From: Amia ocellicauda
Lineage: Eukaryota; Chordata; Actinopteri; Amiiformes; Amiidae
DNA length: 64,000 nt
Assembly (NCBI RefSeq): GCF_036373705.1
Contig: NC_089867.1
Location: forward strand, 11,123,001-11,187,000
Direction: 5' to 3'
A program made the position numbers and the translations under genes. Of this stretch, positions 5,736 through 36,211 are shown piece after piece (position 1 is the first letter of the stretch; every line of letters begins with the position of its first letter). The notes under the pieces were generated by a model. It saw only the letters and a program-made list of their open reading frames with translations, had not been told where the DNA came from and ran no database searches.

Positions 5736-8700
5736 TCAGTGTGGGATTATCCTTTTATCTTCCAGGAGTGAGATCTCTTCTTTAGAGAAGCTGTTCCCCT
5801 TTACGCTTAAACGACAAATGAATGATGCGTCAATAGTACACATTGTAAGAGACCTGTCCATTATGATTACAGGGTTGTGGTGTGGTTTTATAAACCCTAC
5901 CAAAATTTTACAGTGAGGTGTCTTAATAATACAAAATATTATATTCTACTTAGACCCCTGTTTCAAATTAAGATGTAGTTCAGAAGCTGCAAGATTATAA
6001 CTGGACTGGAGAAAAGACCAATATGTGCCACCAATAAGAAAATGGAGTGTGTCCGTGATAAACGTCTGGGAAAATAAGTTCTGTTATTTGCTGTCCTTCA
6101 GTACTGGCTCATGTGGCTGTTATAAAAAATCGCATCTGTCCCGGGCCTGTCCTTACCAGATCTCTCTAATGGTGGAGTTGCCTTTGAGAGCCCTCTCTAA
6201 GCAGGAGACGCCTTGCCAGCTGATCCTGTTCTTGACTAACCTGCCAAAAGAGCAGAGGAAAGCCAGTGAATCAATAGGAGTCACTTGTCTCTACAATCTG
6301 CTTGTTATATGCCTTTGAAGATGCATGGTACTGCAATCAATAGGCAATTTCACACGCACTGTTTTTAATCATGCGAGGCACAGCAGTGTGTTAAAAAAAA
6401 GCCATTAATTCAAAGCCCCTTTCCCATTTTAAATAATTTCATGTTTCTGCACAGTAGACCATTTCTCCCATGCTGCAGCAGGACCTCATTTCCACCCGTC
6501 CCTTAACTGCCCAATTAATCATTGCAGTTCCAAAGCTGGCCGCAAAAACGTTATGTCATGAGATGGACTGTAAGAGTCTGTGTGTAGGAGTCCTTCCCTT
6601 GTGGAACGTTAAGTCTTTAAAACGAGGCCCAGTAGCACAGCATTAAGGCACAAAACATAGTTTGGGTTTTTTGGTCTCGGGTGTAATTGGAAGGCCAGGT
6701 CCTTACCACAGAGACTCTAACGTTTTGTTCACTTTGAGCATCTCCGCCAGACTCTCTGCTGCCTCGTCCTCCAACTGGTTTTCCACCAACCTGTTAGAGA
6801 CGGGAGACAGTAGGATGAGAGGATATGGATCCACTGCGGTCTGAATCAATAATTCCAACAGTGAGAGACCTGTATCTAGATAAGCAATGGGGTTTGGTTT
6901 TCTATCCATCTTTTCCATATCTAGCACTAACATGCAGCATGTAAAATGCCTTTATGTCATGACTATCATTTGAGGACCTGTGACACAAACTACTGCTATA
7001 GTATCACTAATTTTCCATTTGCTTTCAGTTTGTCACTCTAGCAAACAATCATTAAAGCCTAATCACCTAATCAGCCTAATGTAAACAGGTTTAGCCCTTT
7101 TACTTGTTAGCGTTTCATCAATAACCAGTTAAACCTGCTACTGTCAGAAGAGCATGTTTTAAAACTATCTACACAAGTTTTTCAAACGCTCCTTTATGAA
7201 CAAACAGTAACTATATTTAGAAAAAAATCATAATAGTAATCATATTGAAATACATAATCTTTCTGTTGTCTAGTTAAACTATTCTAGTCACACATTCCAA
7301 TATCAGAACAATGTTTCTGGGGTTTTCTGCTTTGGCAGTTCAGTCCTCACCAGAATATCTTCAGGCAGGAGTTGTGACAGAGCGCCTCAGCCAGCATCTT
7401 ACAGCCTTGGCTGGAGATCCCATTAGCAGAGAGGCTAAATCAAAAACATGAGCTGACATTATTACACATGCTGATCCACAGCTACTTTAAAAAGCATCAT
7501 ATGTAAAATTATATTTTTATTCATTAGCTCATTTTCAGTTTTGTATCCTTTGTGGATTGGGAGCAATCTGTTTATTAAGCTAATGTGTTGCCAAGATAGT
7601 TGAATTTGGCCATTCTGTACAGGAGGTTTAAGGTAGTTCTAGATTTGCGATTCTGAACATTACGTAGTTATATTGATAATAAATCATGAGTCAGTACTTG
7701 CAGGAGGCGCTGATCCTTCACTAAACAGTTTGATGACCTTAAATTGAACACACTGGCAACGCATGTTCCCTGTATGTAGCCGCACATGGTTTTCACTTCC
7801 CCAAAATCACCCGTCAGCTTCCATCCCTCGCAGGCCGAGTGTGACGAGCCGGCAGCCTGCAGAGAGCTAATCGCAGCCACTGTACCAGACAGAGCGTCTA
7901 ACGCCCTGATCTGCTTAACGAGCGGTTAAATCATTAACGGGCCGGATCCAACAAAGCTGGGCAAAGCAATGGATCTAACAGTGAACTTGAATGCATGTCA
8001 TTGTAATGGCAAAAATATAAGATTACATAAGTGTTAATCTACAATAAAGGCATGTACTATATTAGTTTTAGTTGGTTTTGTTTGCTTTGTCCAGCCTGGT
8101 TTACTTGCAAATCCAAATTTAAAAGATCACGGACTCATGCAGTCCTGGTGATCTGGTGTCACACCCCCTAATCTAAATATCCAGAAGTGTGTGCATTGAA
8201 ATTGAGATGTAAGATCTGCGATTAATTGACAACCCTTCCTTCCTGAGTGTGTGATTGAATCCAATTTGACAGATATATGAGAAGGTAAGTGAGCTGTGTT
8301 TCCTCCTACAATGGAAGCAGGATCGCCCCCGGTTCCTACCTGAGCTCGATTAAACTGGGGTGTCCGCGGAGAGCTTCAGCGAACGCTGCTGCCCCTTCAT
8401 CGCCGATCAGGTTTCCCCACATTCTGTCACGACACAAACAGAAGGATGTGACAGTGTAGACTTACTATTACTGCAACTGGGGAAAAAAAACAAGACTGAA
8501 AAAGTGTATTAAAACCAATAGTATAAAAAAGTCATTTTATTTCTTAAGTGTGCTTACCCAATCTCAGATATACTCTGGCTCCTTTGGATAGCTCTAGCCA
8601 AGGCTATTCCTCCTTTCTCAGTTATCAGATTGACCCCAAATCTGCCAACGATGGAAAACTCATTAGAACCAATGTAAAGCTTGGCCCTCACTACATCTGT

Positions 8701-11700
8701 GCAGGACTCCAGCTGCTTTCCTGCCCAGCACATCCATCACAGCACAGGTAGTTCAGTTAGTCTTCAGGGGTCTACACAGTGTTGTGGTGCAGAAACTGCT
8801 TTTTGTGGATTCAATGAACAAATATTCCCTCTACAAAGACAGTCAATGGCTGGCATTTCAGACACTGCCAACTGTGTGAAAGATGGCTGTGAAAGACTAA
8901 CACGAGACAGAAAAACATGCACATGTTCGCAGGGGGCGGTTATGATGATCACATAAACCAAAATGATACGTTACTTCAGAACAGAAAAATGTGGGCAACT
9001 GTCAATCAAGCTGGCGATGTCCATTGCTCCCACATCACTGATGGAGTTCATGTAGAGCCTGAGCAAGGGAGTTAAACAATAAAAGTGCATGACAAACTCA
9101 TGTTATAGCACTATACTTACAGGATGCAGATTCAAATTCTTTATGATTAAGAATCCTTGTTCAAAAGCGGTCAGTCAGGCTGCTCCAATTAAACAAATAC
9201 AATTTCTACAATAGTCAACATCTACTGGCTACAAATGTATACTGTCAAATTATTTTTTATGAAATGCATATTTAAATCACAATACAAAAACCCAAATGAA
9301 GCTGGCAGACATACGAGCTGAACATGAACTGTGATTCTCTTAATTCGACAATTAAAACACTTACCCCAGGAATTTGATTTGTTTGTATTTCTTCAGTTCT
9401 TCTGTCAAAATGTGCACCCCAGTGTCTGTAATCTGATTGACACTTAACCTAGGTCATACAAATTATAACAGTTCATTAATCTAACATTTGGACTATAATT
9501 TCCCATGGTCAACATTTTTAGATTTTTGGGAAGTAGAATGTGAAAAAGAAACACAAAAGTTCAAAGCAGCTGGAACCTCCTGTGTGTGCAGAATATGATA
9601 AAATAAAAACAGCAGCTTTACTGTACTGATTTGTATTTAAAATGTATGAAAATATCAATTTTACATGTTTGACCAGATAATAGGGAATATTACCTCAGTA
9701 CTTCAAGGGAACTGAAGCATGGCAGCAGCTCCTGAACCCCATAGTCTGTAATGTTGTTGTTGTCCAGCTCCAGGCGGGACAGAGTCCTGATGTGCTGCAG
9801 CACATTCATGAGGACGCTGCAGTCAGCAGAGTACAGATTGCAGTACGTCAGCTTCAGGTTTTCAGCTCTGAAACCTTTTGCCACAAGTTCAGACAGATCT
9901 TTGTTCTGGCTCTCAAATACACATCTCAGCATCCACAGGAAATTGGGCACACTATGGGGATTCCACAGTTTCTTCTGACTCTTCAAATCATCCTGAATAC
10001 TTCTCTTGAGGTACTTTAAGACTTTTCTCTGTTTCTTCTTCAGGCACGTGGACGTCAAAGTCTGCAACAGGCCAACCCGTTTCTCAGATAGCAAGCCACA
10101 AAGGAACAGCCTTGTGAACTGCAGGTGCTCGCTGACTCCCCCTGCTGGCTTTTCTTTAAATGGCACACATTTGCTGGTGGCTTCTCCGATTTTCCCCGTT
10201 CTCAAAAACACCACGAGTTGGTCGCAGTGGACCTCCTTGTCTATCACCAGTGACAGAGCCGTGAGAAAAGACTGAAGGGTCAAGTGAAGGAACTCGAAGG
10301 TGGACTGGCTGCCGCACCCGTCGTAATGCCCTAAAGGACGCAGGAAGCCCATGGCGGCATCTTCATCTGAGATGTCCATGGCCTCGAGAGCTTCCTGGGT
10401 AAAGATGTACCTGCCCTCCAGCATGTACTCACGAGCTAGTTTAGCCAAACAGACCAACGCCTTCTGTCCCGAGACAAGAACGTCTACTTGTCCCCTTACC
10501 TTGACTTCAGATGCTTTGGATGTGCGATTCAGGAAGACCTCCACCATGCGCAGGAAGATGTCCGTCAGCCTCATTTGAGAACTGGGCATCTGTGAAGAAA
10601 TGGGAGCCATCTTGACATTCTGGAAGCACTTGAATATAATCCAGCAGAACAAGGGAATGGAGCACAAACTACTGAGGCTGGGATTGGCTTCCAGTTGGTT
10701 CATCATTGACCTCCTCTGATCTTCCTCCTTGAAGACCTTCTTCAGGTAGTCCAGGACATTCTTCTGGGTGAAGCCCTTCATCACCATGTTCTTCCGGATG
10801 GTTCTCTTCTGGATCACTGTGCCTGTTCTTGCAGTGAGGATTTTCCTGGATCCTCTGAGCAGCTTTCCATGCATCAGGCTGAGCAGCAGGGCCAGAGGTT
10901 GAGCAGGTTCAGAGGCACACAAGCATTCAGGCCCGACCTCCACCTCCACATGAGAGCTCACTTCATCGAAGCCATCAAAACTCAGCAGCACCGTTGCAGG
11001 GTTCTCCAAGATGTAGTCGAACACCTTGTCCGCATCTCTTTCAGGACAACAGCCATACCTGAAGAGAAGATCTTGCAGAGAGATGGGCTGGTTTTCCATG
11101 CAGCTGAGTGTCCGGCATTTAAACATGAAGAAGAACTTGATGTCTGGAAGCAGCTCCCCTTTCACCCAGAGGTTCTGCAGCTTCTGAAGTAAGATGGTCT
11201 TCCCTGTGCCAGCATCTCCTGTGATCAGGGTCACCTCAGCCTCAGCATTAATCACTGCCCTGTTGTTGAACAGGTCATCAAAGCCACGCTGGCACACCAG
11301 AATGCTATTATCCTTGTCCAGGAGCTCCATGATGGATTCTGTGTAAATCTCATCCAGGAGCATCTCTTCACGTTGAACGTATGTGTCAATGAAGGCTGTG
11401 CTCTGCCCGAGCTCCTGTCTCAGCTTCATACTGTACGATGAGGCTGAATAGAGAACAGAAACATGATTCGTTACACTAAGAAATAACACGTGTGTGCCGT
11501 GTGGTGGGTTGATGGTTTCATTACCTATTATTATTATGTTATTACATTTTATTAACTTCCATTAAAAAAAAAAATCAGGTTACTACATCAGTTTGAAGAA
11601 AGTAGTCTGTGTAGCTCCTAAGCCATGTTGAACCTTTAGCACTGTTTTTTTGTTCATGTTTGATCCAATCATTGTGAAGACACTCATATCAAAGACCAAG

Positions 11701-14322
11701 TTGATAATCCATAACTTTAACTGGCACATGTTTTGTCTGGGTGTTGTGAAATACAACAGAATTGCCAGAAGGCTCAGAAGTCACAATACATCATTCAAAC
11801 TGACAGATTATGGTCAATATCTCTTTTGGGTAATAAACACCTTTCCTCTTGCCTTGATCGTGTCACTAGTAATTATTTTACAAGGCGACATCAGAAATTA
11901 TCCCTTCCTTGAGATTAAAATTACAAGTTATTATGATTTAAAGCATTAGGATCACTGATTCACTTAACTACCCTTGCATTTCCTCAATGTCAATAGACAA
12001 TCTTTCCAACAAGAAAAAAAAGAGAGTTACCTTAAACATAGGCTGGTGCATGATAACGATGAAGGGAATTTCACTCACCTGGATCTCTCAATAAAACAGG
12101 CTTCTGCAACATGCCTTCTGATGGCTGGTACTGGATCGTGCTGAACCAGGGCTGCAGCTCTCTGTAGAAGTGTCTCCCTTGGTGTAGGGTTTGAAGCAGA
12201 CACTTGGCCGTCTCTTCCCCTTTACATGCGACTATATCCAGCAGAGTCCTGACCTAAAGGGAACCGAGCAGAAGTGCTGAATGTCATTCACACTATGGGA
12301 GCATGTGAAGAGCCTGGGAGCTGCATCCTGCCTTAATCCACATTCTCTCACTTCCTCCTCATGGTCACTTTGCTAATCAGGACCTATTCAATTTCGTCTG
12401 TAACACCTGTTGGTGATTTTTCAATTATTACTTTTTTTCTTCCCCCAAACTATTTGTACTAGATACAAAAATACACTTCAAATTAATTAAAATTGTAAAA
12501 CAAATAAGTTCCATGTTAATGCAATTATATCAAAGTATACTTAAAGCGACTACTGGGGATGATACGGCCAGTGTAGACTTTCATCTTTAATTTGAGGGTA
12601 GTTACATCCAAATTGGGTGAACGGTGTAGGAATTACACCCATTTTTATATGTGGTCCCCACAATTTTAGGGGCTCAAACGTATTCAGACAAACTAACATA
12701 ATCATGAATTAAATTAAATTGTGAGTTTCAATACTTGGTTGCAAATCCTTTGCAGTCAATGACTGCCTGAAGTCTGGAACCCATAGACATCAGCAGATGC
12801 TGGGTTTCTTCCCTGGTGATGCTCTGCCAGGCCTGCACTGCAGCTGTCTTTAGTTCCTGCTTGTTCTTGGGGCGTTTTGCCTTCAGTTTTGCCTTAGAAA
12901 TCAAAACAAACCAATCAGAGAGAGAGCAAAAACATTAGGTGTGGCCAAATCAACTATTTGGTACATTTGTAAAAAGAAAGAACGCACTGGTGAGCTCAGG
13001 AACACCAAAAGGCCCGGAAGACCACGGAAAACAACTGTGGTGGATGACAGAATAATGATTTCCCTGGTGAAGAAAAGCCCCTTCACAACAGTTGGCCAGA
13101 TGAAGAACACCCTCCAGGAGGTAGACATATCTGTGTCAAAGTCAACAATCAAGAGAAAACTTCACCAGAGTAAATACAGAGGGTTTACCACAAGATGTAA
13201 ACAGGAAACAGGAAGACCAGATTAGAGTTTGCCAAAAAAACATCTAAAGAACAGTTCTGGAACAACATCCTATGGACAGATGAGACAAAGATCAACTTGT
13301 ACCAGAATGATGGGAAGAGAAGAGTATGGAGAAGGGAAGGAGCTGCTCATGATCCAAAGCATACCACCTCATCTGTGAAGCACGTTATGGCATGGGCATG
13401 TATGGCTGCCAAGGGAACTGGTTCCCTTGTATTTATTGATGATGTGACTGCTGACAAAAGCAGCAGGATGAATTCTGAAGTGTTTCGGGCTATATTATCT
13501 GCTCAGATTCAGCCAAATGCTTCAAAACTCATTGGACGGTGCTTCACAGTACAGATGGACAATGACCCGAAGCATACTGCGAAAGTAACCCAAGACGTCT
13601 TTAAGGTGAAGAAGTGAAATGTTCTGCAATGGCCAAGTCAATCACCCAACCTGAATCCAATTGAGCAGCATTTCACTTGCTGAAGGAAAAACTCCCCAAG
13701 AACAAGCAGGAACTAAAGACAGCTGCAGTGCAGGCCTGGCAGAGCATCACCAGGGAAGAAACCCAGCATCTGGTGATGTCTATGGGTTCCAGACTTCAGG
13801 CAGTCATTGACTGCAAAGGATTTGCAACCAAGTATTGAAACTCACAATTTAATCCATGATTATGTTAGTTTGTCTGAATACGTTTGAGCCCCTAAAACTG
13901 AGGGGAACACATATAAAAATGGGTGTAATTTCTACACCGTTCACCCAATTTGGATGTAACTACCCTCACATTAAAGATGAAAGTCTACACTTAAAGCACA
14001 TCTTGTTTCCTTTCAAATCTATTGTGGTGGCGTACAGAGCCATAATTATGACAATTGTGTCACTGTCCAAATATTTATGGACCTAAATGTATATAGTTTC
14101 TACAGCATCCATTCCCCCATCTTCCTGTCAATACCCCAGTACCTTATTGGAGCGGGTGTTGCTGTGTTCTACCATCTCCTTATCTTCCCCTGTGAAGAAC
14201 TCATGCTGCACCAGGCTGTCCACAATCCACTCTGTGCTTGGGATCGTCTTAATTAAAAATATGCGGTGCTGTTTGAGGAGAGGGATGTACGATATTTTCT
14301 GCACCCCACCAGACACCTCCAT
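5736..14322 (-). CDS. NOD1-like CARD-NACHT-LRR receptor (divergent tandem paralogue)
   Basis: Predicted cytosolic pattern-recognition receptor, 920 aa. Exons in transcript order: 14143-14322, 12079-12253, 9694-11443, 9365-9448, 8975-9058, 8558-8641, 8340-8423, 7351-7434, 6707-6790, 6157-6240, 5736-5805. All splice phases fit. The first two exons form the CARD, with the acidic GEDKE stretch matching the RIPK2-binding patch of NOD1. The large exon carries NACHT: Walker A GDAGTGKT (about residues 194-201), Walker B DGFDE (275-279) and the TARTGT arginine. Seven 84-nt exons each encode one 28-residue LRR, and a short exon gives the C-terminus, as in human NOD1. The start has an upstream in-frame stop; an extra 5' exon cannot be excluded. 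It resembles nod1 at 19860-30770 but is clearly divergent; no frame break was found. A Tc1 element sits in the first intron. Confidence 0.92.
12560..14093 (+). mobile_element. Defective Tc1/mariner element with long inverted arms
   Basis: Lies in the first intron of the NOD1-like gene. Plus-strand frames at 12941-13225 (helix-turn-helix region with GRPRKTTV) and 13297-13617 (catalytic part with VQMDNDPKHT) are separated by stop codons, and NLNPIEQ follows near 13650, so the transposase is dead. The left arm (about 12570-12880) is the inverted copy of the right end (about 13690-14000), so the arms include the 3' end of the coding region. The right end reads CACTGTCCAAATATTTATGG. The outer part of the left arm is missing. 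Confidence 0.85.
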
Positions 14323-16521
14323 CCCCTCGTCTTCACCCTCTCGGCGTCTCAGCAGAGGTTAAATCCACTCCATTCTTAACTAGGAGGAAAAGAAAAGCAT
14401 AGCAGTCAAACGATACCACAGTTGTGATGCAAGACGCCACTTGGTGTTTAAACGTAAAGTGAGGGCGTTTCAAATTGTGTACCGATTCACATATTCCCCC
14501 CTGTAAGGACTCTTCCGCCTAAGGTTCATTCAAATGTTCTGCAGGTGGAGTGATTGGTACCTCTTTGTAACTCTTTCCAGCCCACCGAAAGCAGAGAGAT
14601 CAGGAAATGGAACTTGATGAACTTCCCATGAACTGAGTGACCCTCAAGCCACAAAACAAACAAACTAAACCTTCGGTCTTCAACACAAGTGCTTATGGTG
14701 GCTTATGAATATACTGTAGTTCAGTGTACTCTCTCTTCTACAATTTAAATGATACAAACGGCAAGATGTGCATTTCTGTGCTGCATGTAAATACCTGGGA
14801 AAACATCAAATGAAAAACACTAAAACAAACGACATTCAGTTAGTCTAGACTTCATTCAGAGGTAAATATTTAAAATTGGAGTTAATATGGTTAAGTTATT
14901 TTAATAAAATAAACATCTCAGTCCATTAAAGCAACTAGAGTTGTTTTTTTCCCTTCCTTCTTATGCCAGACATCTGAGCGATGCCTTATTAACAATTCCC
15001 ACAGACGCATACTCACCCAGCCATCTTTTGCACTAGTTATTGCTTTCCGGAAAAACAGCAATGAAAACAAAGCTTCCTGTTTATGTTAAAGGGCAAGTCA
15101 TTATTTTAACGGTTGTTTTTTTCCCCCCGTCTAAGTCTTCGAAAGTGAACACGCAGCATATTCAGAGTAAGGAAGTGTAACGCTTTCATCTCTCACCCCT
15201 CAGCCCTTATTTAAATTTGATTGGTTCTAGAAACTGAGCTCAGGTTACCATTACAATTCAAAACCACAGAGGGGTTTGAATCTTCTTACACACGAGTAAA
15301 GAGGAAATTACATTAAGAAGGAAAGAAAACTAAAGGAGTAAGGAGAAGTCAAATTATATCCAACCACCTGTTTTTGGACTGTGCTTTTAAAATAGGGAAT
15401 AATTGGTGAAGAGACCTTTAGCTCCTACAGAAGGTGGTGATATAAACTGCAGAATGCCATGTTGGAGCGCTGCTCTGACTATTAATTGTTCATGCATTAC
15501 CCCAGAGCATATTCATCTTAGGGTTTGGGTCTGTTGTGCTCTGGCCCTGGTGGGGTTTGTCAAGATTTGGGGTCTCTCAAGATTGTTTAAATGATGTGTT
15601 TAAGATGGTAAATGTATTACTCCTCCTCACGCTGGCTATACTTAAGGGAAGGGATTACCACACTATCTTGAGGTATAATAATGACCATGCTTCTTTCTTT
15701 ACCAATGAATAGCCTCACACATTTCTGTTCCAAACAATGCCCTGCAGCATATGAAATGCATGCTGACTGCCTGTTGCAAATTCATTTGCTTGGTCTAGTG
15801 CCGTGGTTCTCAAAAGGTGGATCCAGAAATAATGACAATGTTTATGCCTTTTGTTTCTGACATGAATTCATATTTTAATTATATATGTAAACTGCCCTGA
15901 ATAAATAAAAGCAACATTTACCGTTCAATGATTTTCATTTCATACCAGCTGGAGTAAACCATTCCCACTGAGCTGCTCTGAGCTGCAATGCAATTAGGAG
16001 GGTAAATGGGACAATGACGTTCAATGGCAGTTTAAGGGTGATATGTAATGATGGGATGAATTCTAAATGCACCCCAAAGAAAATTTAGCTGCATAATTCT
16101 TATTTTTTTCCTTTACTGACTGTTTCGGTTATATATACTGTTTTGTATTACTGCTACTGAGAGATAACCTAATGCATTTTGTCTCCAGGCGCAGAAGGGT
16201 GTGTGGTTTGCATGTGTGAAATGGTGATCTAGTGGTTTCATGAAAGGGCTTCCAAAGAGGAAGTTCCTGGCTCAAACGTCCAATGATATTAGTTGCTTCT
16301 TGTAACCGGTCACATTTATTTTACTTTACAAATAATAATATTCTAAATAACATTTGGACGTCTCCTGACAAAATATTTGCATGATTAGTAAAGAAATTAA
16401 GAATAATTCCCTACATCCTGTCTTCTTGTATGGCTTCATGCAGTGTATGGTTTGTGAAAGTAGTTTGGGATTATTTATTTTCAGAACAGTAGCATTTAAG
16501 GATTTGAATGATGTAGTAATT

Positions 16522-16523
<2 letters not shown>

Positions 16524-16555
<32 letters not shown>

Positions 16556-16588
16556 ATTATATATATATATATATATAATTATATATAT
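16524..16588. repeat. TA microsatellite, interrupted
   Basis: Runs of TA broken by TAATAATTA. Confidence 0.9.
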
Positions 16589-16681
16589 GGCAGTAGCTAA
16601 TATATGTGTATTGTATTTTTTTTAAAGGAGAGTGTAATCCTGACTTCCTTGATTGTATATATATATATATATATATATACA

Positions 16682-17899
16682 CACTCACCTAAAGGATTAT
16701 TAGGAACACCATACTAATACTGTGTTTGACCCCCTTTCGCCTTCAGAACTGCCTTAATTCTACGTGGCATTGATTCAACAAGGTGCTGAAAGCATTCTTT
16801 AGAAATGTTGGCCCATATTGATAGGATAGCATCTTGCAGTTGATGGAGATTTGTGGGATGCACATCCAGGGCACGAAGCTCCCGTTCCACCACATCCCAA
16901 AGATGCTCTATTGGGTTGAGATCTGGTGACTGTGGGGGCCAGTTTAGTACAGTGAACTCATTGTCATGTTCAAGAAACCAATTTGAAATGATTTGACCTT
17001 TGTGACATGGTGCATTATCCTGCTGGAAGTAGCCATCAGAGGATGGGTACATGGTGGTCATAAAGGGATGGACATGGTCAGAAACAATGCTCAGGTAGGC
17101 CGTGGCATTTAAACGATGCCCAATTGGCACTAAGGGGCCTAAAGTGTGCCAAGAAAACATCCCCCACACCATTACACCACCACCACCAGCCTGCACAGTG
17201 GTAACAAGGCATGATGGATCCATGTTCTCATTCTGTTTACGCCAAATTCTGACTCTACCATCTGAATGTCTCAACAGAAATCGAGACTCATCAGACCAGG
17301 CAACATTTTTCCAGTCTTCAACTGTCCAATTTTGGTGAGCTTGTGCAAATTGTAGCCTCTTTTTCCTATTTGTAGTGGAGATGAGTGGTACCCGGTGGGG
17401 TCTTCTGCTGTTGTAGCCCATCCGCCTCAAGGTTGTACGTGTTGTGGCTTCACAAATGCTTTGCTGCATACCTCGGTTGTAACGAGTGGTTATTTCAGTC
17501 AAAGTTGCTCTTCTATCAGCTTGAATCAGTCGGCCCATTCTCCTCTGACCTCTAGCATCAACAAGGCATTTTCGCCCACAGGACTGCCGCATACTGGATG
17601 TTTTTCCCTTTTCACACCATTCTTTGTAAACCCTAGAAATGGTTGTGCGTGAAAATCCCAGTAACTGAGCAGATTGTGAAATACTCAGACCGGCCCGTCT
17701 GGCACCAACAACCATGCCACGCTCAAAATTGCTTAAATCACCTTTCTTTCCCATTCAGACATTCAGTTTGGAGTTCAGGAGATTGTCTTGACCAGGACCA
17801 CACCCCTAAATGCATTGAAGCAACTGCCATGTGATTGGTTGGTTAGATAATTGCATTAATGAGAAATTGAACAGGTGTTCCTAATAATCCTTTAGGTGA

Positions 17900-17902: not shown

Positions 17903-17940
<38 letters not shown>

Positions 17941-17951
17941 CATATACACAT

Positions 17952-18008
<57 letters not shown>

Positions 18009-18010
18009 CA
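17903..18010. repeat. TA / CATA / CA compound microsatellite
   Basis: TA repeat passing into CATA and CA repeats and back to TA, directly abutting the Tc1 right end. Confidence 0.93.
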
Positions 18011-18178
18011 CAGTGAGGGGGAAAAAATATTTGATCCCCTGCTGATTTTGTACGTTTGCCCACTGACAAAGAAATGATCAGTCTATAATTTTAATGGTAG
18101 GTGTATTTTAACAGTGAGAGACAGAATAACAACAAAATCCAGAAAAACACATTTCAAAAAAGTTATAAATTGATTGGA
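18011..18178. mobile_element. Tc1-type terminal fragment
   Basis: Starts CAGTGAGGGGGAAAAAATAT and continues TTTGATCCCCTGCTG, the familiar terminal repeat of a different fish Tc1 family. Only one end is present and no transposase follows. Confidence 0.7.
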
Positions 18179-18179
18179 G

Positions 18180-18455: not shown

Positions 18456-19859
18456 AGGATGGGATAGATGTATTTATTTTCATATGTATTCATACATCTA
18501 TATACATACACACAGAGAAATAGTTGCCAGCAACTGAAACACCAGGAAATATAGACTATACAACTTATATGCTGCACAGGGCTGCCAAATATAAATGTAA
18601 ACATAAATGGGCTGTACCTCAAGTCTGAGGCTAAAAGCTAGTAGGCCGCAGGCGAGCCAGCAATTAAAAACTATTACATTTAGCATTCATCTCTGATAAC
18701 ATTTAAATTCACATCTGAATTCACAGAACGCAGTGCAAAAAAGCGTGACCAAGCTACTTCATAGAAATGCAGAGAGGAAGAAAAATCCCTCCAGGATGTG
18801 TAAAACGGGAAACAGGCTGACTGTGTCAGTGATCAGAATGAAACCACAGCGAAGAGAACATAAAGCACCAGTAAGGGAAAGTGTCCAAAGACTGGTGCTG
18901 AACGTGATACAGAAAGTTAACCGTTTCTCTGCTAAAATGGTTGAAATATCTGCGTTACACATTTAATATTACTGTAGTTTTCATTAACATAAACTCAGAC
19001 ACCCTTAAAAACAGAACTATTTTGCTTGGTGGCATGCATAGAAGACAAGGCTTTATGAACAGTAACATTTACACCCCTAATGTTCAACTAGATTAAAACC
19101 TACAATTTGCTGTTGGGATATCACATCTCTACTCAATAGCATATACAAAGCAAAGCAACAATAGCAGATGCCAAAACCGAATTATGAAAGTCTACAAGAC
19201 CCAGCAATAGTGTGATACAAATGACAATAATGTGTAACGCTCTCATTGAAATACAATCACAGAACAGCAGAAGATAGGACAGGAGTTGTTTTAACATACT
19301 GCCTGCTTACAATTCTTTAACTTTCTGTTAGGTAAATAACAAGGTACAAATCGTACCATATCCCACGGTGCACTGCAGCTGTGCAGAATACACCAGCAGT
19401 TCATTGGTCCATCACCTGCAGTGAGGAAATACAGAAAATTAACCCCAAAATACACACTTTTACTTTTGTCCTGGACTTCAAAAGAAACTCAGGGTGTAAA
19501 ATGACCAATGGCTTCAGAGTTCCTGTATCTTATTGCCCGCGAATTAAGGGTGCAATTTGTTTTTAGGCCTTGTAAGGACACCACAATGTCAGCTGCCTAA
19601 TACTTACCACTGAAATGCAGTCGGGTTTTATAAACAATTCACAAAACAATGACTTGGCAGAAAAGCGGTCTTAAGATCCTGCCTGCTACAGTCAATAGAT
19701 TGTTCCAGATTGTTTGTTTGTTTTGTAGTTTTTAAGTCCAGAAATGAAGATGCTTTAGTGCCCCCCCAAGGCGTGTGAAGAGACCCCTTCAGGACAGGAA
19801 GTCCTACAGGCCTGTTGCTAGATCACCCGCATCATCTCCGTGGGACAGGGAGCCGCTTT

Positions 19860-22800
19860 TCAGTTGAACCGCAGACGCTCCTCATGGCTGAAACTCTTCT
19901 CTTCCTCTTCTGTTAAGATGTTTCCTTTCAGACTGTTGCGAAATAATCAGAAACATGAAAAACAGGAACTGCAACATTGTTCTCTACTTTAACCCTTTGC
20001 AGTCCAATTATTGTTAGGTTTTCTGGTAATAAATTAACTTTTCAACTATAGAAAAGCTACAAAACCTTTTCCAGCACTTCACATACCTCTAACAAAGGTG
20101 ACCAGCAAAAAATAAAAACATAAAACAAATGTTTTACATCAATATTTACAACTATTTACTTGTGGTGTTTGAAAACAGGAGAAATATGTAAAATGCACAA
20201 AAATACACAATCACCTGAAAGCTATATGCAATGTGCTATTGTGTTGGAGTGCTCAATGGTCTATCTGTGTTTTTGCCATGTACGATCCTCAAGGATCCTC
20301 CACACCCTCCCCACTACGCATAGTACGGTACGGTGTTTTCTTTACAAAAGTAGAGGTTTATAATTATTATTATTATTATTATTATTATTATTGCTAAAGG
20401 TACTGCATAGGTGTAAACATTTTTTTGTTAGCAAGAGATAGCACTTGTATAGCCTAAGAATGTAGCAGAACTGTGCAGAAAGTTGTTTTTGGCAACATAG
20501 TGATATATTCTTATATATTGTACAATGAGGAATTCAACTACAAAAGTCTTCTCCCATTTTTTGAACCATTGCCCCCACCCACAAGGTGTACAAACAACAA
20601 CAATAAATAAGAATAAAATAAGATAACAGATACAAAACAAAAACATGAAGAACATAAATCAATCAATCAATTAGCACTTGTAGGACAGTATGCAAGAGTG
20701 TGTGCATGGACTCTGCAGATGTATTTCTCACATGTGCAGCACATAGTATTGGTTTTACAGTCCTTCTTTGGGGGCAGAATTGGCATCTCCTCCTCTTGCC
20801 TGCCCCAGCTGCAGCATCAGGTGGATCAGAACAAGATTCAGCCCCCTGAACAGCTTTCACAAGTGCTGCAGAGGCTGTTGTGCAGGGCAGGGCAGGTACA
20901 AGTGCCTTTCCCAGCTGCTCCAGGAACACCCTCCTCTTGTTCCGCTTATCAGGTATCCAGATAGGGTTGATCTTGTTCCATATCACGAAGGCATTGTATG
21001 AGGACACATCAATGATGTTATGGAAGATGACCAGTGGCCAGCAAGCAGTCATTCTCCTGCAGCTGTAAGTTCCAATCACCTTGTCCAGGTTGTCCATGCC
21101 TCCTTTGTTGTGGTTGTAGCCCAGGATGATGGCTGGCTTCCTGTCCGCACGATCACTGATCTCAACCGTTTTGTGCAGTGTGCTCAGGAGGACCATAATC
21201 TAGTTCCTCTTTGGGAGGTAAGAAACTAGAGTGGTGGTGGGGGTGAAGGCACACTTTGATGAGAAGGCCTCTCTCCCCCTTGTTGTGAGGAGTGCAGGGG
21301 GGAGCTCAGGCTTGTTCTTTCTAACTGTGCCAACCATGGCGATCTTCCTCTTCAGGAGCTGCTGGCTGAGTTGATAAGAGTTGAAGAAATTGTCACACGT
21401 GACATTGTGCCCCCTCAGTCCATCTGTCACATAAAGCACAACCCGCATCCCCTGGTTCTTCTCTAGACCTCCACTGGTCGGCTTCCCTGTGTAGACTCAC
21501 ATCTTCCAAGCGTAGCTGGATTGTGTGTCACAAGCCACCCATATCTTGATGCCATACTTTGCAGGCTTGATGGGCATACTATCAGTGTGTGTGTGTGTGT
21601 GTGTGTCTTTGTGTTTTTTGTGGTGTGTCAAAAATGACCCTAAGACAATCTTTGTACCCTGGTGGTGTACAGCTTTCATGGAAACATGAACAAAGGCGAG
21701 GTTTCACTTTTTCTAATGTTGAGGTCACTCTAGGAAAAGTCATCAAATTTTAAGTTGAAAAAATATAATTTTCTCTGCTGTTAAACATAGTGGCAGGCCA
21801 TTTTTGACCCTTAAGACAACACAAGGGTTAAACATTGCACACATAAAAAACTATATCAATACTTTTCTTTACTGAACTTCCATGTACATTCAACGAGCAA
21901 ATGTAAAATAGAGCATAACAAAGTTCTACGAGTCAATCCATGTATATTCAGTATGCTCACTTACTGTCAAAACGTCATCATGTTTATTCTGTTCAAAACA
22001 ACCAAGTTCCTATATCCTTAACCTAGTAAACGGTGACGGTCTTTATGTTTGGAATCTCCCTCACCTATAAATACTTTCCATTAGTATCTGCTGGTCTCTG
22101 CTTTTTTATGTTTTTAAATGGAATTACACATTATAATAATTGAATACGAATACTAAACCATCAACATGTGCACATACCGGCACATATATTGTAAATACCT
22201 TGTACTGGACACATTATTTTGTTTTTGCTAGGTTAAGCGATGACCTAATTGTAGAAACTGTTTAGTTTGTTTGCCCTGTGCCAGTGCTGAACGACACTCC
22301 TGCCCTGCGAAGGTATCAGCGTCTCTTTCTCGTTTTGTTGCGCTTATTCTACCGGTATGATTATTGCTTTGCTAGTCTGAAAAAGCATATTCTAATTCTA
22401 ATTCTAATTAAATCAATGTTTATTGACTATATTTCGTGTACAATGATCAATTGAATACACATATGCAACAGTTATTCTTATTATTCCGTCTCTTGGTTGC
22501 GGTTGTGCTTATTGCTGTACGTGTATGAAAAATAAAGGCTTATTCTGTCGTACTCTAGTACTTTTATGTTTATTTTGTCTAATTTACATTGATTATTTAA
22601 ATACACAAGCACAAATATTATATTATATACTTGTAGAAAACATATACACTATTTATTTAGTCTTAATAATACACAAAGAAAAGTTAAGCAACTTAAGAAA
22701 AAGTGTAAACTCAGGCGCACACATGCCGCTGATGTGCACATACACTCACCTAAAGGATTATTAGGAACACCATACTAATACTGTGTTTGACCCCCTTTCG

Positions 22801-25800
22801 CCTTCAGAACTGCCTTAATTCTACGTGGCATTGATTCAACAAGGTGCTGAAAGCATTCTTTAGAAATGTTGGCCCATATTGATAGGATAGCCTCTTGCAG
22901 TTGATGGAGATTTGTGGGATGCACATCCAGGGCACGAAGCTCCCGTTCCACCACATCCCAAAGATGCTCTATTGGGTTGAGATCTGGTGACTGTGGGGGC
23001 CAGTTTAGTACAGTGAACTCATTGTCATGTTCAAGAAACCAATTTGAAATGATTCGACCTTTGTGACATGGTGCATTATCCTGCTGGAAGTAGCCATCAG
23101 AGGATGGGTACATGGTGGTCATAAAGGGATGGACATGGTCAGAAACAATGCTCAGGTAGGCCGTGGCATTTAAACGATGCCCAATTGGCACTAAGGGGCC
23201 TAAAGTGTGCCAAGAAAACATCCCCCACACCATTACACCACCACCACCAGCCTGCACAGTGGTAACAAGGCATGATGGATCCATGTTCTCATTCTGTTTA
23301 CGCCAAATTCTGACTCTACCATCTGAATGTCTCAACAGAGATCGAGACTCATCAGACCAGGCAACATTTTTCCAGTCTTCCAACTGTCCAATTTTGGTGA
23401 GCTTGTGCAAATTGTAGCCTCTTTTTCCTATTTGTAGTGGAGATGAGTGGTACCCGATGGGGTCTTCTGCTGTTGTAGCCCATCCGCCTCAAGGTTGTAC
23501 GTGTTGTGGCTTCACAAATGCTTTGCTGCATACCTCGGTTGTAACGAGTGGTTATTTCAGTCAAAGTTGCTCTTCTATCAGCTTGAATCAGTCGGCCCAT
23601 TCTCCTCTGACCTCTAGCATCAACAAGGCATTTTCGCCCACAGGACTGCCGCATACTGGATGTTTTTCCCTTTTCACACCATTCTTTGTAAACCCTAGAA
23701 ATGGTTGTGCGTGAAAATCCCAGTAACTGAGCAGATTGTGAAATACTCAGACCGACCCGTCTGGCACCAACAACCATGCCACGTTCAAAATTGCTTAAAT
23801 CACCTTTCTTTCCCATTCAGACATTCAGTTTGGAGTTCAGGAGATTGTCTTGACCAGGACCACACCCCTAAATGCATTGAAGCAACTGCCATGTGATTGG
23901 TTGGTTAGATAATTGCATTAATGAGAAATTGAACAGGTGTTCCTAATAATCCTTTAGGTGAGTGTAAATGACTGCGCACAGAAACAGGAACCGTCAGCAA
24001 CCCATCAAACAGGATCGCACTGGCGCGGCTTAGAGCAATCAAGCGGCTCTGCCACCACTGTAGTTCATTCATTTAATCAGATTGCCGATTTATTATGACA
24101 GTGATTCGCAAATTGTAATATATATTTCACAAAATTCCAGCACTTTCATTCGGAATTCAAGCACTTTCACAACCTTGAAAATACCACCTTAAAATTCAAG
24201 CATTTTCAAGGATTTCAAGCACCCGTACGAACCCTGGATCCTTCTTGAGGCATTTATCTGGGTGTAAACCAGGCTTTCTGCTGCAGGTTTTGCGTAAGTA
24301 TATAGTCTCATTTCTGCCACCCATGTAAAGAACTACTTACTTCACTGTGTGCTTATTCTAACATGTGGAACAGCTGTGCAGATGTGCCTGCGTGATGCTG
24401 ATGCGGCGGGGTCTACCCTGCAGAGAGCCGCACCTCTCTCTATCACTTCCCAGGTCCACACTGGCAGTGGGGGGCGAAGCCCATAGGTTTTGATTTTTTT
24501 CCAACTTATCGTGATGTTTCAAAGGCTGCCGAAGCCTGTGATCGGCTTTTTCTATGCAAAAGACGAGTTTAAAGAGATCGCAACTGCATTTTTACAATGT
24601 CCGACATAGGACTGCAGAGGGTTAGGGCGAGGGCCTTGCGTGGGATAATTATTTGCAATACATAATAGCTTTCTCTGTAGCCCCATCCAGTACAACATAC
24701 CAATACAGTACAACTGAACAGTCATCCCTATCAGTCATGTATAATTATGGTAACCATTATGGTAATTAAGCCGCAGGGAAAAGGGTCAAAATAAAATGAA
24801 CTCTGTTTCCAGTTAGCTGCAATTTATTTGCAAACAGCTCAGCAACAGTCAGTATAGTATAATATAAAAGGACAGCACAGCACATTTAAAAACAGATGAA
24901 GATGAAACACTTACCAGATCTCTTTCAGTGATTTGTTCTGAGGCAGCGCATCCGCCAGCATCCTTGCCCCCTTAGCGGTTATTTTATTCTCAATTAACCT
25001 GCAAACAAGTGTGACGCCGAGAGGTTTTCATCTTCAATATTGCTGGTTATTGTCACGATCAGGCTTGTGATTAAGCTGCATTACTTTCATTTTTGGAATA
25101 ACGGCAGCAATAAATACCATGTTAAATTAATACAAAATGTCAGTTTCAAGGTAAAGCTTAATATTTATCTTGTACATGTCTCTCTTCCTCTTCTTTTCAG
25201 AAGCATTTTCAGTCTGTCCTGCCTGCTGGGAGATTGATGCTTTGGTTTAAGGTATTATTTTACAGCATCATCACGGTCACACAATTCATCAGCATCAATC
25301 TGCCATCTACATGGTTATACATTCATCCTCAGTGCATCTAAAAACATCTACACCCCCAAAGAGATCAGTGGGTGTGACAATCTTCTACAACATCCACTTC
25401 TTCAAGGGAACGCCCACAGAGTGCCGATTGTAATGAGAGTCCATGCTTACCACAAGTGGGTTAAACCAGAGTTGACCTTGACAGTTTCAGCAAAGCAGTT
25501 TGCAACTTCGTCATTAAACTCATTCTGAACCAGCCTGAGGAGAAAAGGACATGTTGAGTTCTTACTAATATTTATGAATCACTGAAAACAACAGAACACG
25601 GCTCTAGCCAAAAGGTTCAGGCAAGACAGAGCTGACTCATCTCATCACGCAAAACGAAACCTGCCGAGTAAGACGCTGATTCCTGAGCAAGGTTTCACAA
25701 TTCGTAATGACTGGATAAGAAGTCAGCAGAGGAAGAGAGGTATTAAGCAGGAAAGGCCTCGATCTTCAACTAGAATGTGTCACTTTAGAGTCTGCCCTGT

Positions 25801-28800
25801 TTAAGAGCCATACATTTGAGCAGGTGTTGGATAACAAACAGGGATTATGGCAGTCAAAGCACACAACCTAGTTTCGACAAGTTGCAGAGACTGAGGGAAC
25901 TGAACCTTTTCACCCTGGAACAGAGGAGACTACGTGGGGACTTGATTCAAGTCTTCAAAATCATGAAGGGCATCGACCACATCAAACCAGAGGAGCTTTT
26001 CCAGATCAGCAGGGACACACGCACTCAGGGACACAAATGGAAATTGGGCTTCAAGGCATTCAAAACGGAAAACAGGAGACACTTCTTCACACAGAGAGGC
26101 GTCACAATCTGGAACAAACTCCCCAGCGATGTGGTAGAAGCTGAACATTTCGGAACATTTGAAAATAGACTGCATAGGATCCTTGGATCACTTAGTTATT
26201 AATGGACACCAAACGAGCACGATGGGTCGAATGGCCTCCTCTCGTTTGTACACTTTCTTATCTCCTTATAAGACCTGACAGGTTCCTTCGGTAACTGTAA
26301 TCCAATTAAATCCTGTGATAATTTGCAGTTTGTTACCTTGGGCTCTTTATCAGGTTCTTATTTAGTTCACAAAACACCCTGTTACAGTAATTCAGGAGCA
26401 GAGCTGCAGCTCAAAACAGGAGCTAACCTCATACAACAGAAGCAACACACATGTGCTTCTAAACAAACAACCTATGAATCACCACAGCTGTCTTCCTGAT
26501 ATTTACCAAAAGATATGGACAGACGTGTTTTCTTTCAGGGCAGCAGCCAGGCTTCTCCCTCCCTCTGTGGAGATCCCATTTAATGACAGGCTTGGGAAAT
26601 CAAAAAGAATGAAGCAGCTGACATCTCATTTCAGGAGGTACATTTACAAGCTGACTGAATTAAACTGCAATTAATTACATGTGATAGCAGTATTGTATAG
26701 ACAATTAGTTGTAGGTTCTGCTTATCTGAATGTCAGGTTGGATCTGGAATATAAATGTTGCTAACATTTCAACATAATAAATTGTTCAAGCCAATAAGGA
26801 TGATAAGCACTGATAACGGCAGAAAGTCTGAAATTAGACTCAGGAAGGAATAATAACAACCTGACAAAATAAACTGGCTCAACATAACTTCCTTTCAGAG
26901 AGCACTCTTGTCCTCCAACTCTTCCAAAAAGGTGTTCTAACAGTCCAGGCAATCCTTTAACCAGTGAGCAAGATCCTCTTACCTGAGGTTTGTGAGGCTG
27001 GGGTGATTCTTCAAGGCTTCGGCAAAGGCTTTGGCTCCTTCGTTCCCAATAGTATTTCCCCACATTCTACACAATTGGAAAAACAGCAAATGAGGCACTG
27101 AAACAAGTTCATTGCACAGCATTCACTGCATCGTCCCCTAGCCACAAGACCTTACCCGACATCAAAGATGGTTCTACTCTTCTGAATTGCACCAGCCAGA
27201 TATTTCCCACCTTCACTCGTAATCTTGTTGCACCCAATTCTGTTAAAGAAAAGAGAACAAACTCATTTTGAACAGAAACGTGGTTCACATTTTCCCAGCA
27301 CAGTAGCAAAAGGTAGCAGAGACTGTTATGCAGTGTATGACCAAACATAGTCCCACATTATTTTATGTGGAAAAAAAACAACCACAGAATTTCCCTCCCA
27401 AGAAGCAGGCAGTGAAACACAAGCCAATAAACCATAAGCCGTACATACTTAACAATTCTGAGACTGGGGCACTCTTCAATGATATGCGCCACCAGTTTGG
27501 CTCCAACATCCGTGATCTGATTCTTATAAAGTCTATGAAAGAGAAAGGAGGACATATTTTAAAGCAGCATTATGAAAAGAGTGTCTCTTGGGCTTGACAT
27601 AGTGGCAATATAATGTTACAGATAAAAAGGGGATAATAGAGGAGGGCAAGCTTACCCCAGCACTTTGATGACTTTGTACCTCAATAATTCTTCTGCTAGA
27701 ATTTCCATACTGGTATCTGTGAGCTGATTGACAGAAAATCTGAAAACGAGCATACATCAGTTTTTAATTAGCAGAATTCAGCAGCTTATTGTGAATACGG
27801 TGTCCTAGATGGCTCAAATTACAGAGCAGTTGGATTACAAATGGACAAATATCTGTAAACAGCTATAAGCAGTAGTGCTTGAGTGGATTTGAAGTTAAAA
27901 TACAGTTTATACAGTTGTTTATGGAAACATAATTAATTCTTCTGTATGCTGTCCACCATATAAATTAATTTCCACATATTCAGGTATCTTCTTGTTAATC
28001 TCGTGAAAAATAAAATCACCAAAGGAACCTCCAGCATGAACTCCTTACCTTATTACAGTCAGTTTATGGAAACATGGCTTAAGCTCCTTCACGCCATAGT
28101 CATTGATGTTGTTGTTGTCCAAATCCAGAGCAATGTTTTTCTGGTGATGAAGCAATACAAAGTTAATTGCACTGCAGTCGGCCGAGAAGACATTGCAGAA
28201 AGTCAGTTTGAGATAATCAGCCGAGATCCCTCTGGCAGCGACCTTCGCGATTTCCTCGCTCTGAGTCTCAAAAATACACCTCAACATCCAAATAAAATTA
28301 GGCATCACATGGACTTTGTTTCCTTCTTGCTCACACTTGACCCGAGGTAGGCTTTTCAAGTGAGACTTGACACTGTCTGACAGGTAAGACTTGAGAAGTT
28401 CTCGTTTCTTCTTCAGTGATGTGGGGGGGACCAGGTGCTCCAGTAGGTTGACGTTGGACTTGGACAGAAGTCCACACAAGAACAAGTTAGTGAACTGCAA
28501 GTGCTCATTTTCCTGGAAAGGGTCCTTGCCACGTGGTTTGGAGCCTCCAAGACAGGGACAAGGAAAATGGTTTGCGCTTTTATAGTCGCACTCTGAAAAG
28601 AACTTCAGAATCCCAGCAGGGCCAATGCTTTCGTCCAATACCAGCAGCAAGGCAGCAAAGAAAGACTGGAGAGTTAGATGGAGGAAGTCAAAGGTGGACA
28701 GGGTCCCACAGCCATCGTACTGGCAGACGGGCCTGAGGAAGCCCAGCTGTAGATCCTTCTCCTCGATGTTGCAAGAGGAAATCTCATCCTGGTTGAACAC

Positions 28801-30770
28801 AAAGCCGGTCTTCTCCATCCCGAGATGAGCTAGCCGCCCAAAGGCAATCAGAGTTTCCTTGCCGGCTTTGAAAGTCTCCAACTGGCACCTGGTACTCCTC
28901 TTTAGCAAACCAGGCTTGGAGGAGCGACTGAGAAATACCTCAACCATCAGCATGAAGACATTGGTGAGGGTGACATACAAGTCAGGCAACTCAAAGTCAT
29001 CGTAAACTGTCTGGAAGTGTTTGAAGCTTTTGAAGATGATCCAGCAGAACAAGGGGATGGAGCACAAGCTGCAGAGATGAGGGTTGGCATTCAGCTGGTT
29101 GTTCACCAAAGCCTGGTAATCCCTGTCCTTGAAGTGCAGAGCAGTGTACCTCCGCAGGCACTCTGGGGAAAAGCCCTTGAGATGAACCTTCTTCCTGACT
29201 ACCTTGTTCTGGATGTCAGTGCCCGTGCGTGCAGTCAGGACTTTCTTGGAGCCTGGCAGCAGTTTCCCACTGAGTAGATTCATGAGAAGCAACAGTGGGT
29301 GGGTCTTCTCTTCAGGAGAGCAGACCTCTGGAATGTTCCTCAGGTCAAAATCGGCATGAATCTCATCAAAACCATCGAAAGTAAAGAGCACAGTCTCTGG
29401 GTAGTGCTGTATGTACCTGAAGACCTCATTATCAGGGTCCTTGTCTGGGTAGCAGTTGTACTTGAAGAGAAGATCCTTCAGGGAGATCTCGTCAGTCTCC
29501 TTGAAGGCACTGAACATCCGGCAGCGGAATTTGAAGAAGAACTTGGACTGGACACATATCTCCCTAAAGGACCACAAGTTCTGCAGCTTCTGCAGCAGGA
29601 TGGACTTCCCAACACCAGCATCCCCCATAATGAACAGGGTCTCAGCGTGCTGGTTAAAGACTCCACGGTCGCTGAAGAGCTCATCTAAGCTGTCCAGGTA
29701 GCCCAGGCTCTCGTTGCGGTCATTCAGCAGCTCCATCAGAGTATCTGTGTACATCTCCTCCAGCAGGGTCTCCTCTCTCTGGGCGTAGGAGATTATGAAC
29801 TTGGTGTCCCGTCCCAGATCATGGTGTAGCTTCTCGCAATACCTACTTACTGCAAGGAAACATGAACAGAAAGGACTGCATTACACAACAACTAATTAAC
29901 CAACCAGCCAATCAGGTGAAAATTTCAGATTGCACTGATGGAACTCAAAGAAAACCGAAAAGACATTATCAATTTTGTGTCTAGTGCAGTACAGTACAAA
30001 GACTCAGGCTAGGTTGCCTATGGGTTTCTATTAAAATAAGGGACTTTCCTTGATTGATATCCAACAGTGGTGCCCAATCTCTATGACATAAAACACCAGG
30101 AGCACAACAGCAAAAATGCAGAACGTCATACAGTCCTACATCCAGTGCTTCTTGACCCTCAAACCTTTAAAAGACACATGGGAATGTTATTACTCTGTAC
30201 TATGAATATTAGTTGAGGGGTGAACATGTTGAAACCATCTGAAAAAAAAACTTCTGGAACCATCCGTTATGGTCTTCCTCCACACTCACCTGGGTCGGTG
30301 TTGATGACGGGTATTTTCCGGACACAGTCGGAGGGCTCATACTGGATCTCTTTGAACCAGGGCCTCAGGTCGATGTAGGCATCATAGGCCTCGTGCAGAA
30401 TGTGCACAAAATACTCCGCTACCTCTTCCCCTTTGCTCTGTACCAGCTCCAGGATTTTACGCACCTGTTCAACACAGAAGACTTGCAATGAACCAAAGGC
30501 CTTTCTAGGGCAGATTGTGACAGCAGACACAAACTACATGGCATGATATACCTGGTCTGTCCTGGTGGGAAAGCGCAAGATAATCTCCTCATCCTCCGCG
30601 CAGAAGAACTCGCTGCGCACTAGATTGTCCAGCACGCACTGCGTGTTCCTGACGTGCGTGACCAGCAGCTCCCGGTGGCGGGTGAGCAGCCGGCAGGTCT
30701 GCGCAGAGGCGAGCAGCTGCCCCGCAACACGGCAGCTCTGCGCAGAGGCACGGCCGGGCTCCGTGGCCAT
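19860..30770 (-). CDS. nod1: NOD1, nucleotide-binding oligomerization domain receptor 1
   Basis: Cytosolic sensor of gamma-D-Glu-meso-DAP peptidoglycan fragments, signalling through RIPK2 to NF-kB. Predicted 951 aa (human about 953). Exons in transcript order: 30552-30770, 30290-30464, 28049-29849, 27656-27739, 27449-27532, 27156-27239, 26983-27066, 26507-26590, 25451-25534, 24915-24998, 19860-19932. The CARD (about residues 30-120) includes LLTRHRELLVTHVRNTQCVL and the acidic AEDEE patch. NACHT has Walker A GDAGVGKS (207-214) and Walker B DGFDE (290-294), then TARTGT. Seven 84-nt LRR exons and a short C-terminal exon follow. The last intron (19933-24914) is swollen by transposons. It has the same phases and the same 175-nt CARD exon as the paralogue at 5736-14322, and reads as the canonical orthologue. 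Confidence 0.96.
20361..20392. repeat. TTA trinucleotide microsatellite
   Basis: About ten TTA units. Confidence 0.9.
20663..21831 (-). mobile_element. piggyBac-like element, transposase remnant with one terminus
   Basis: Minus-strand frames hold piggyBac transposase motifs in order: KPAKYGIKIWVACD (near 21540), HNVTCDNFFNSYQL (near 21390), NHNKGGMDNLDK (near 21090), and a cysteine-rich C-terminus RRRCQFC (near 20780). The frame breaks between 21200 and 21196 and again near 21480, and the N-terminal half is missing, so it is a pseudogene. At 21806-21831 the terminus ends ACAACACAAGGG followed by TTAA, the piggyBac target site. A TG microsatellite (21585-21606) interrupts the 5' side. The other terminus was not found. 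Confidence 0.85.
22743..23964 (-). mobile_element. Tc1/mariner DD36E element, one-base frameshift
   Basis: Near-identical sister of the element at 16682-17902, with intact 29-base inverted repeats and TA on both sides (22741-22742 and 23965-23966). The transposase frame splits into 23352-23816 and 22775-23410 because of one extra C near 23380 (CTTCCAACTG versus CTTCAACTG in the intact copy). Otherwise only scattered substitutions are seen. It lies in the last nod1 intron. Confidence 0.95.
24110..24236 (-). mobile_element. hAT-type terminal fragment
   Basis: Read on the minus strand it starts CAGGGTTCGTACGGGTGCTT at 24236 and continues with repeated TTGAAA/TGCTTG units, the terminal sequence of a widespread fish hAT family. 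Neither a transposase nor the second terminus was found nearby. Confidence 0.65.
25810..26265 (+). mobile_element. CR1/Rex-like LINE, 3' end
   Basis: The plus-strand frame 25816-26202 holds LRELNLFTLEQRRLRGDL and, downstream, RGVTIWNKLPSDVVEA, the conserved C-terminal end of CR1/Rex-type LINE reverse-transcriptase polyproteins. It is followed by the tail GAATGGCCTCCTCTCGTTTG, common at the 3' ends of such fish elements. It is 5'-truncated and antisense to nod1 in an intron. Confidence 0.8.

Positions 30771-36174: not shown

Positions 36175-36211
<37 letters not shown>

Follow-up and report, generated by a model that had tools for sequence, protein, structure and literature searches.

Two intact NOD1 genes in tandem

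The window analyzed here is a stretch of 64,000 nucleotides (nt) from the genome of the bowfin Amia ocellicauda (C24:11123001-11187000 of a 988-Mb assembly, which also served for all genome searches; C numbers are our contig labels). It contains two intact NOD1 genes in tandem, which we refer to as copy A and copy B. Both lie on the minus strand. In our spliced models, A runs from an ATG at 14322 to the end of its stop codon at 5736 (2763 nt, 920 amino acids) and B from an ATG at 30770 to 19860 (2856 nt, 951 amino acids). Each model has 11 coding exons, GT-AG borders at all ten introns and no internal stop, and the exon end phases of the two are alike. The exons are as follows, with LRR denoting leucine-rich repeat.

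Copy A
14143..14322, minus strand, coding exon 1 (start codon, first CARD part), 180 nt
12079..12253, minus strand, coding exon 2 (second CARD part), 175 nt
9694..11443, minus strand, coding exon 3 (NACHT, winged helix, HD2, first LRR), 1750 nt
9365..9448, minus strand, LRR exon 4, 84 nt
8975..9058, minus strand, LRR exon 5, 84 nt
8558..8641, minus strand, LRR exon 6, 84 nt; codon 8565-8563 GAG = Glu784, equivalent to human E816
8340..8423, minus strand, LRR exon 7, 84 nt
7351..7434, minus strand, LRR exon 8, 84 nt
6707..6790, minus strand, LRR exon 9, 84 nt
6157..6240, minus strand, LRR exon 10, 84 nt
5736..5805, minus strand, last coding exon 11 with stop, 70 nt

Copy B
30552..30770, minus strand, coding exon 1 (start codon, first CARD part), 219 nt
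30290..30464, minus strand, coding exon 2 (second CARD part), 175 nt
28049..29849, minus strand, coding exon 3 (NACHT, winged helix, HD2, first LRR), 1801 nt
27656..27739, minus strand, LRR exon 4, 84 nt
27449..27532, minus strand, LRR exon 5, 84 nt
27156..27239, minus strand, LRR exon 6, 84 nt; codon 27163-27161 GAT = Asp814, equivalent to human E816
26983..27066, minus strand, LRR exon 7, 84 nt
26507..26590, minus strand, LRR exon 8, 84 nt
25451..25534, minus strand, LRR exon 9, 84 nt
24915..24998, minus strand, LRR exon 10, 84 nt
19860..19932, minus strand, last coding exon 11 with stop, 73 nt; preceded by a 5-kb intron with transposase remains

Pfam recognizes CARD, NACHT, a NOD2-type winged helix (NOD2_WH), HD2 (NLRC4_HD2) and LRR in both proteins. 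The Walker A motif reads GDAGTGKT in A and GDAGVGKS in B, and Walker B reads LLSFDGFDE and LFTFDGFDE, respectively. An initial annotation of the window had claimed two complete NOD1-type genes with unbroken frames, a shared 175-nt second CARD exon, seven shared 84-nt LRR exons and intact Walker motifs. The rebuilt models bear out all of these claims, and the coordinates were exact. No second CARD was found upstream of either gene, as nothing in 14323-19850 or 30771-36500 scored better than E 0.39 in a search that recovers the CARD exons of A. AATAAA/ATTAAA signals follow the stop codons of both copies, which is uninformative.

Conserved neighbors of the pair

In human, a single NOD1 lies between ZNRF2 and GGCT. 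The gene order in the window is ZNRF2 (+), A (-), B (-) and GGCT (-), with the following flanking features:

1485..1541, plus strand, ZNRF2 last coding piece (CIDEWFEVNRSCPEHPSD + stop), conserved left neighbor, name from C-terminal motif
32891..36796, minus strand, GGCT-1, four exon pieces, conserved right neighbor, structure match

The joined pieces of GGCT-1 match human gamma-glutamyl cyclotransferase with 167 bits. The exon on the left carries no tool assignment; we take it to be ZNRF2 from its C-terminal motif. With these two neighbors, the placement of two NOD1 genes in the slot that holds one in human, also part of the initial annotation, is upheld. GGCT itself is present as a tandem pair on the minus strand (32891-36796 and 37795-40558), with four matching exon pieces each that are 48 to 74% identical.

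Descent of the two copies

In a search of solved structures, the human NOD1 CARD was the best match for the CARDs of both A (67 bits) and B (135 bits). Across the NACHT exon the similarity between A and B has an E of 3e-177, which excludes that their likeness arose by chance. When B was searched against the genome, A was nearest (544 bits, 47%), followed by a NOD2-like gene on C9 (320 bits, 36%); all remaining loci besides the exons of B itself gave at most 99.1 bits among the 48 of 62 candidates scored. No third NOD1-type gene was found among these 48, nor when A and B were compared with the open frames of 36 NACHT loci, where the best score of A was with NOD2 (296 bits) and the next was 130 bits. 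At least 40 NACHT matches were scored genome-wide from 60 candidates, many of them on C20 and at C24:4.7-6.2 Mb.

The C9 gene is 54.8% identical to Protein Data Bank (PDB) entry 5irl and is preceded by two CARD-like stretches. Entries 5irl and 5irm are listed as uncharacterized protein and are, we presume, rabbit NOD2; on this basis, and because of the two CARD-like stretches, we call the C9 gene NOD2. Copies A and B share NACHT, winged helix, HD2 and 84-nt LRR exons with NOD2. They differ from the C9 gene in having seven LRR exons and one CARD, whereas six 84-nt LRR exons were found in the C9 gene. This number agrees with a report that Actinopterygii have lost an LRR exon of NOD2 (PMC3791470).

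The NACHT tree had 24 rows, namely A, B, human NOD1, 5irl, NOD2 from the same genome and 19 other NOD-like receptors (NLRs) of that genome. Twenty of the 36 fetched NACHT loci entered this tree; the other 16 were dropped by eye as near-duplicates or as short, broken or weakly similar. The human query of 953 residues is our own reconstruction beyond the CARD. Its CARD agrees with the human NOD1 CARD letters from the structure matches, and it has the stated residue at all 32 numbered positions taken from PMC3791470. All statements on branching order lean on this one reconstructed sequence.

A, B and human NOD1 formed one clade (support 100/100) and the two NOD2 sequences another (100/99). A joined none of the 19 other NLRs, whose rows are unnamed, so that NLRC3 is not identified by name among them. 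A grouping of A with NOD2 was rejected (p-AU 4.2e-5, approximately unbiased test). The NACHT phylogeny proposed in the initial annotation as a check thus places A with NOD1 and away from NOD2, for a sample made up of NLRs from the same genome, 5irl and the reconstructed human NOD1. By this comparison of sequences, A is of NOD1 descent and not of NOD2 descent. The idea that A belongs to NOD2, or to some other type of NLR with a likeness to NOD1, draws on the structure search, in which the solved chains closest to the NACHT exons of A and B were 5irl/5irm; a NOD1 NACHT chain was absent from the lists. We consider this idea next to impossible. A as a NOD2 is ruled out by the rejected grouping, by its single CARD, by its position in the NOD1 slot and by the separate NOD2-like gene on C9.

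Age of the duplication

A is identical to human NOD1 at 423 of 920 positions and B at 521 of 941, while A and B agree at 432 of 917; these human values come from the sequence reconstructed beyond the CARD. The proportion of differing sites between A and B is 0.353 for nonsynonymous (pN) and 0.746 for synonymous (pS) positions, with a dN of 0.48 and a saturated dS of about 3.9. At 4-fold sites 64 of 175 are identical (36.6% vs. 26.6% expected from composition). Since silent sites are near saturation, the pair is judged to be old, and a recent duplicate is ruled out. The initial annotation was correct in calling A the more divergent copy and in arguing against a recent duplication. Per-exon dS was 2.2 or more, and infinite for the LRR and the last exon; because of this saturation, dN/dS per exon is not measurable from the A-B pair.

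These sequences tentatively favor a duplication that is older than the divergence from the human lineage over one that came soon after it. It would then predate the separation of ray-finned and lobe-finned fishes, and A would be a vertebrate NOD1 lineage lost en route to humans, for which we see the chances as evenly balanced. The 24-row NACHT tree joins B with human NOD1 and leaves A outside (98/97). In full-length tests, B with human was best in five of six models, with a margin of no more than 3.2 log units, and in three of four further subsets. B is also closer to human NOD1 than to A (511 vs. 432 of 917 shared columns, in 2000 of 2000 resamples), and the rates of A and B are not significantly different (unique changes 75 vs. 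58, p 0.14, and 51 vs. 42, p 0.35). A grouping of A with human was rejected in the NACHT tests (p 0.023), in four of six full-length models and in three of four subsets.

On the other hand, a grouping of A with B was never rejected (p-AU 0.074 in the NACHT tests, 0.26-0.53 at full length, 0.28-0.55 in subsets). Five-row NACHT trees join A and B, albeit weakly (47/4, 50/3), and outgroup-polarized NACHT sites favor A with B (16 vs. 7 for B with human and 9 for A with human). Polarized sites elsewhere give tiny counts in the opposite direction: in the LRR 2 for A with B vs. 4 for B with human and 3 for A with human, and in the CARD 1 vs. 2 and 1. The rate of A furthermore exceeds that of human NOD1 (p 0.033 and 0.009), and an age before the split rests on a single reconstructed human sequence.

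Among 88 matches to an Antennapedia homeodomain in the assembly, the dense Hox-type runs are on four contigs (C3, C7, C10, C22), and the remainder are singles or small groups. From the four runs, the fish is judged to be one without the teleost genome duplication.

Functional residues and position 816

The equivalents of E53, D54 and E56, the acids that contact RIPK2, are all three kept in A and in B. So are the LRR residues K790, G792, G818, W820 and W874, which are five of seven mutagenized residues and completely conserved in NOD1s (PMC3791470). The same paper describes two LxxLL motifs (L314, L592) as completely conserved in NOD1; B keeps both and A keeps the L592 motif. The initial annotation had noted an acidic CARD patch in both copies. 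The CARD of A, however, has lost its net negative charge (0, as against -5 in B).

Position 816 of human NOD1 corresponds to Glu784 (GAG) in A and Asp814 (GAT) in B, each encoded in exon 6. Among 53 NOD1 sequences, 27 have Glu and 26 have Asp at this position, with Glu tied to a tripeptide and Asp to a tetrapeptide preference; human NOD1 has Glu and recognizes the tripeptide, and the mouse receptor prefers the tetrapeptide (PMC3791470). A may accordingly differ from B in its ligand, with A preferring tripeptide and B tetrapeptide stems. We hold this division by stem length tentatively, at a little short of an even chance. The initial annotation had guessed that the second NOD1 senses a different peptidoglycan fragment; the Glu/Asp difference makes this guess concrete in one residue, and the rest of it is inference.

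Proposed function of copy A and alternatives

Taken as a whole, we consider the following reading fairly probable: two intact NOD1 genes, which go back to an old duplication in tandem and belong to a ray-finned fish outside the teleosts, encode receptors that probably split their ligands by stem length. Each copy would most likely work in the cytosol as a NOD1-type receptor. Its LRR would bind a peptidoglycan fragment of the diaminopimelic acid (DAP) type, its NACHT domain would bind ATP and oligomerize, and its single CARD would recruit the CARD of RIPK2, by which NF-kB would be turned on. A, with Glu at position 816, would respond to tripeptide stems and B, with Asp, to tetrapeptide stems. 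We presume that A and B are expressed, that A signals through RIPK2 and that ligands are split between the two. A search with a human RIPK2 query gave one strong match to its CARD, on C2 (146 bits), which retains KRED and TRT-KVR; the two other matches had at most 34 bits.

Several observations weigh against two sensors with divided ligands. A single residue is thin evidence for specificity, and the concave surface of the LRR (24 of 45 positions identical between A and B) is little different from the remaining LRR (62 of 127). Of 20 further LRR residues listed in PMC3791470, A keeps 14 and B 15, and H788 is V in A and I in B. In the CARD, net charge is 0 in A against the -5 that B shares with human NOD1, and A has K in place of E84 and Q in place of Y88, two sites tied to ubiquitin binding (PMC3791470). 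At L314, A reads LLSLM; three residues upstream of it lies the start of an LxxLL (LALLL). The changed CARD surface is the basis for a different role of A, namely that of a regulator which assembles together with B by way of the NACHT domain and thereby damps or adjusts the recruitment of RIPK2. The altered charge, the E84 and Y88 substitutions and the LLSLM at L314 would all suit such a role, as would the finding that, of all domains, the CARD differs most between A and B (37.0% identity, compared with 47.4% for NACHT and 51.4% for LRR). Still, A keeps the three acids relevant to RIPK2 as well as the invariant LRR residues, and the latter argue against a pure CARD decoy, which would not need them. 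We regard a regulatory role as unlikely. A duplication before the ray-finned/lobe-finned split fits both a sensor and a regulator.

The faster evolution of A relative to human NOD1 could also mean that A is decaying and that its frame has stayed open because constraint was lost only recently. This is very unlikely, as the pair is old and saturated at silent sites, yet A is free of stops and frameshifts and has kept its functional residues. When random substitution of the B frame was simulated, none of 300 copies was open at 10% and 4 of 300 at 5%, whereas A at 47% identity is open throughout. The initial annotation had made neutral dN/dS across the NACHT and LRR exons of A a point against its view. 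The frame of A as a whole looks non-neutral from the simulation and from a pN well below pS, and the comparison exon by exon is lost to the saturation of dS. Two ligand-sensing NOD1 receptors remain our preferred reading of the pair.

Comparison with known NOD1 genes

Tandem NOD1 genes have been described in sharks. The whale shark has NOD1-A, -B and -C, and the elephant shark has two adjacent NOD1 genes flanked by ZNRF2 and MTURN (PMC8455134). These copies keep NACHT and key motifs and vary at residue 816, for which different recognition was proposed, and the authors inferred a duplication in the cartilaginous-fish ancestor (PMC8455134). As the shark genes are in print, the A-B pair is of an already known kind. 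It resembles the cartilaginous-fish sets in its multiple tandem NOD1s, in the ZNRF2 flank (elephant shark) and in residue 816 differing among copies. It differs in belonging to a ray-finned fish and having two copies, compared with three in the whale shark. Tandem NOD1s beside ZNRF2 have already been published (PMC8455134), and what is new here is a ray-finned pair with a Glu/Asp split at position 816.

Among other fishes, NOD1 is in tandem with ZNRF2 in the teleost snakehead (PMC13296148), a NOD1 transcript was reported from a bamboo-shark transcriptome (PMC4067322), and the accessible part of a review of fish NLRs mentions no duplicated NOD1 (PMC12436146). Our literature search, judged from listings and covering few subscription journals and little database annotation, turned up no paper describing a NOD1 duplicate for gars or bowfin. 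Both bowfin copies keep the CARD and LRR functional residues of human and mouse NOD1 and share the human slot between ZNRF2 and GGCT. Human and mouse have one gene each, with one residue at position 816, whereas a Glu copy and an Asp copy are present here in one genome.

This pair is relevant to the published view that NOD1 was duplicated in tandem within the cartilaginous fishes. A could be a second NOD1 lineage from before the bony-vertebrate split that sharks also retain in their tandem NOD1s, whereas tetrapods and most teleosts have lost it. A and B would then preserve an ancestral division between tripeptide (Glu) and tetrapeptide (Asp) recognition, with single-copy lineages later choosing one way. 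We consider this scenario unlikely. An old Glu/Asp pair adjoining in one genome is in any case a natural test of whether residue 816 sets ligand choice, and it yields both a testable prediction on ligand choice and an answerable question about age.

Other features of the window

To the right of GGCT, the plus strand at 47407-50117 carries exons from a gene for a sodium:neurotransmitter symporter (SLC6/SNF). Further pieces, up to about 55114, presumably belong to an SLC6/SNF gene as well, judging by their motifs.

Between A and B, an open frame of 346 amino acids (16714-17754, minus strand) encodes a Tc1/mariner-type transposase (HTH_Tnp_Tc3_2 + DDE_3). A frame-broken copy is found in the last intron of B (22775-23816), and the compared pieces are 94 to 98% identical to this frame. 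Additional transposase copies of the Tc1/mariner type occur in the left flank. The high identity of the copies, together with one frame that is open, suggests fairly recent activity of the element. The last intron of B also contains a fragment at 20663-21199 (minus strand) with a DDE_Tnp_1_7 match of 24.1 bits, which we take to be of the piggyBac type.

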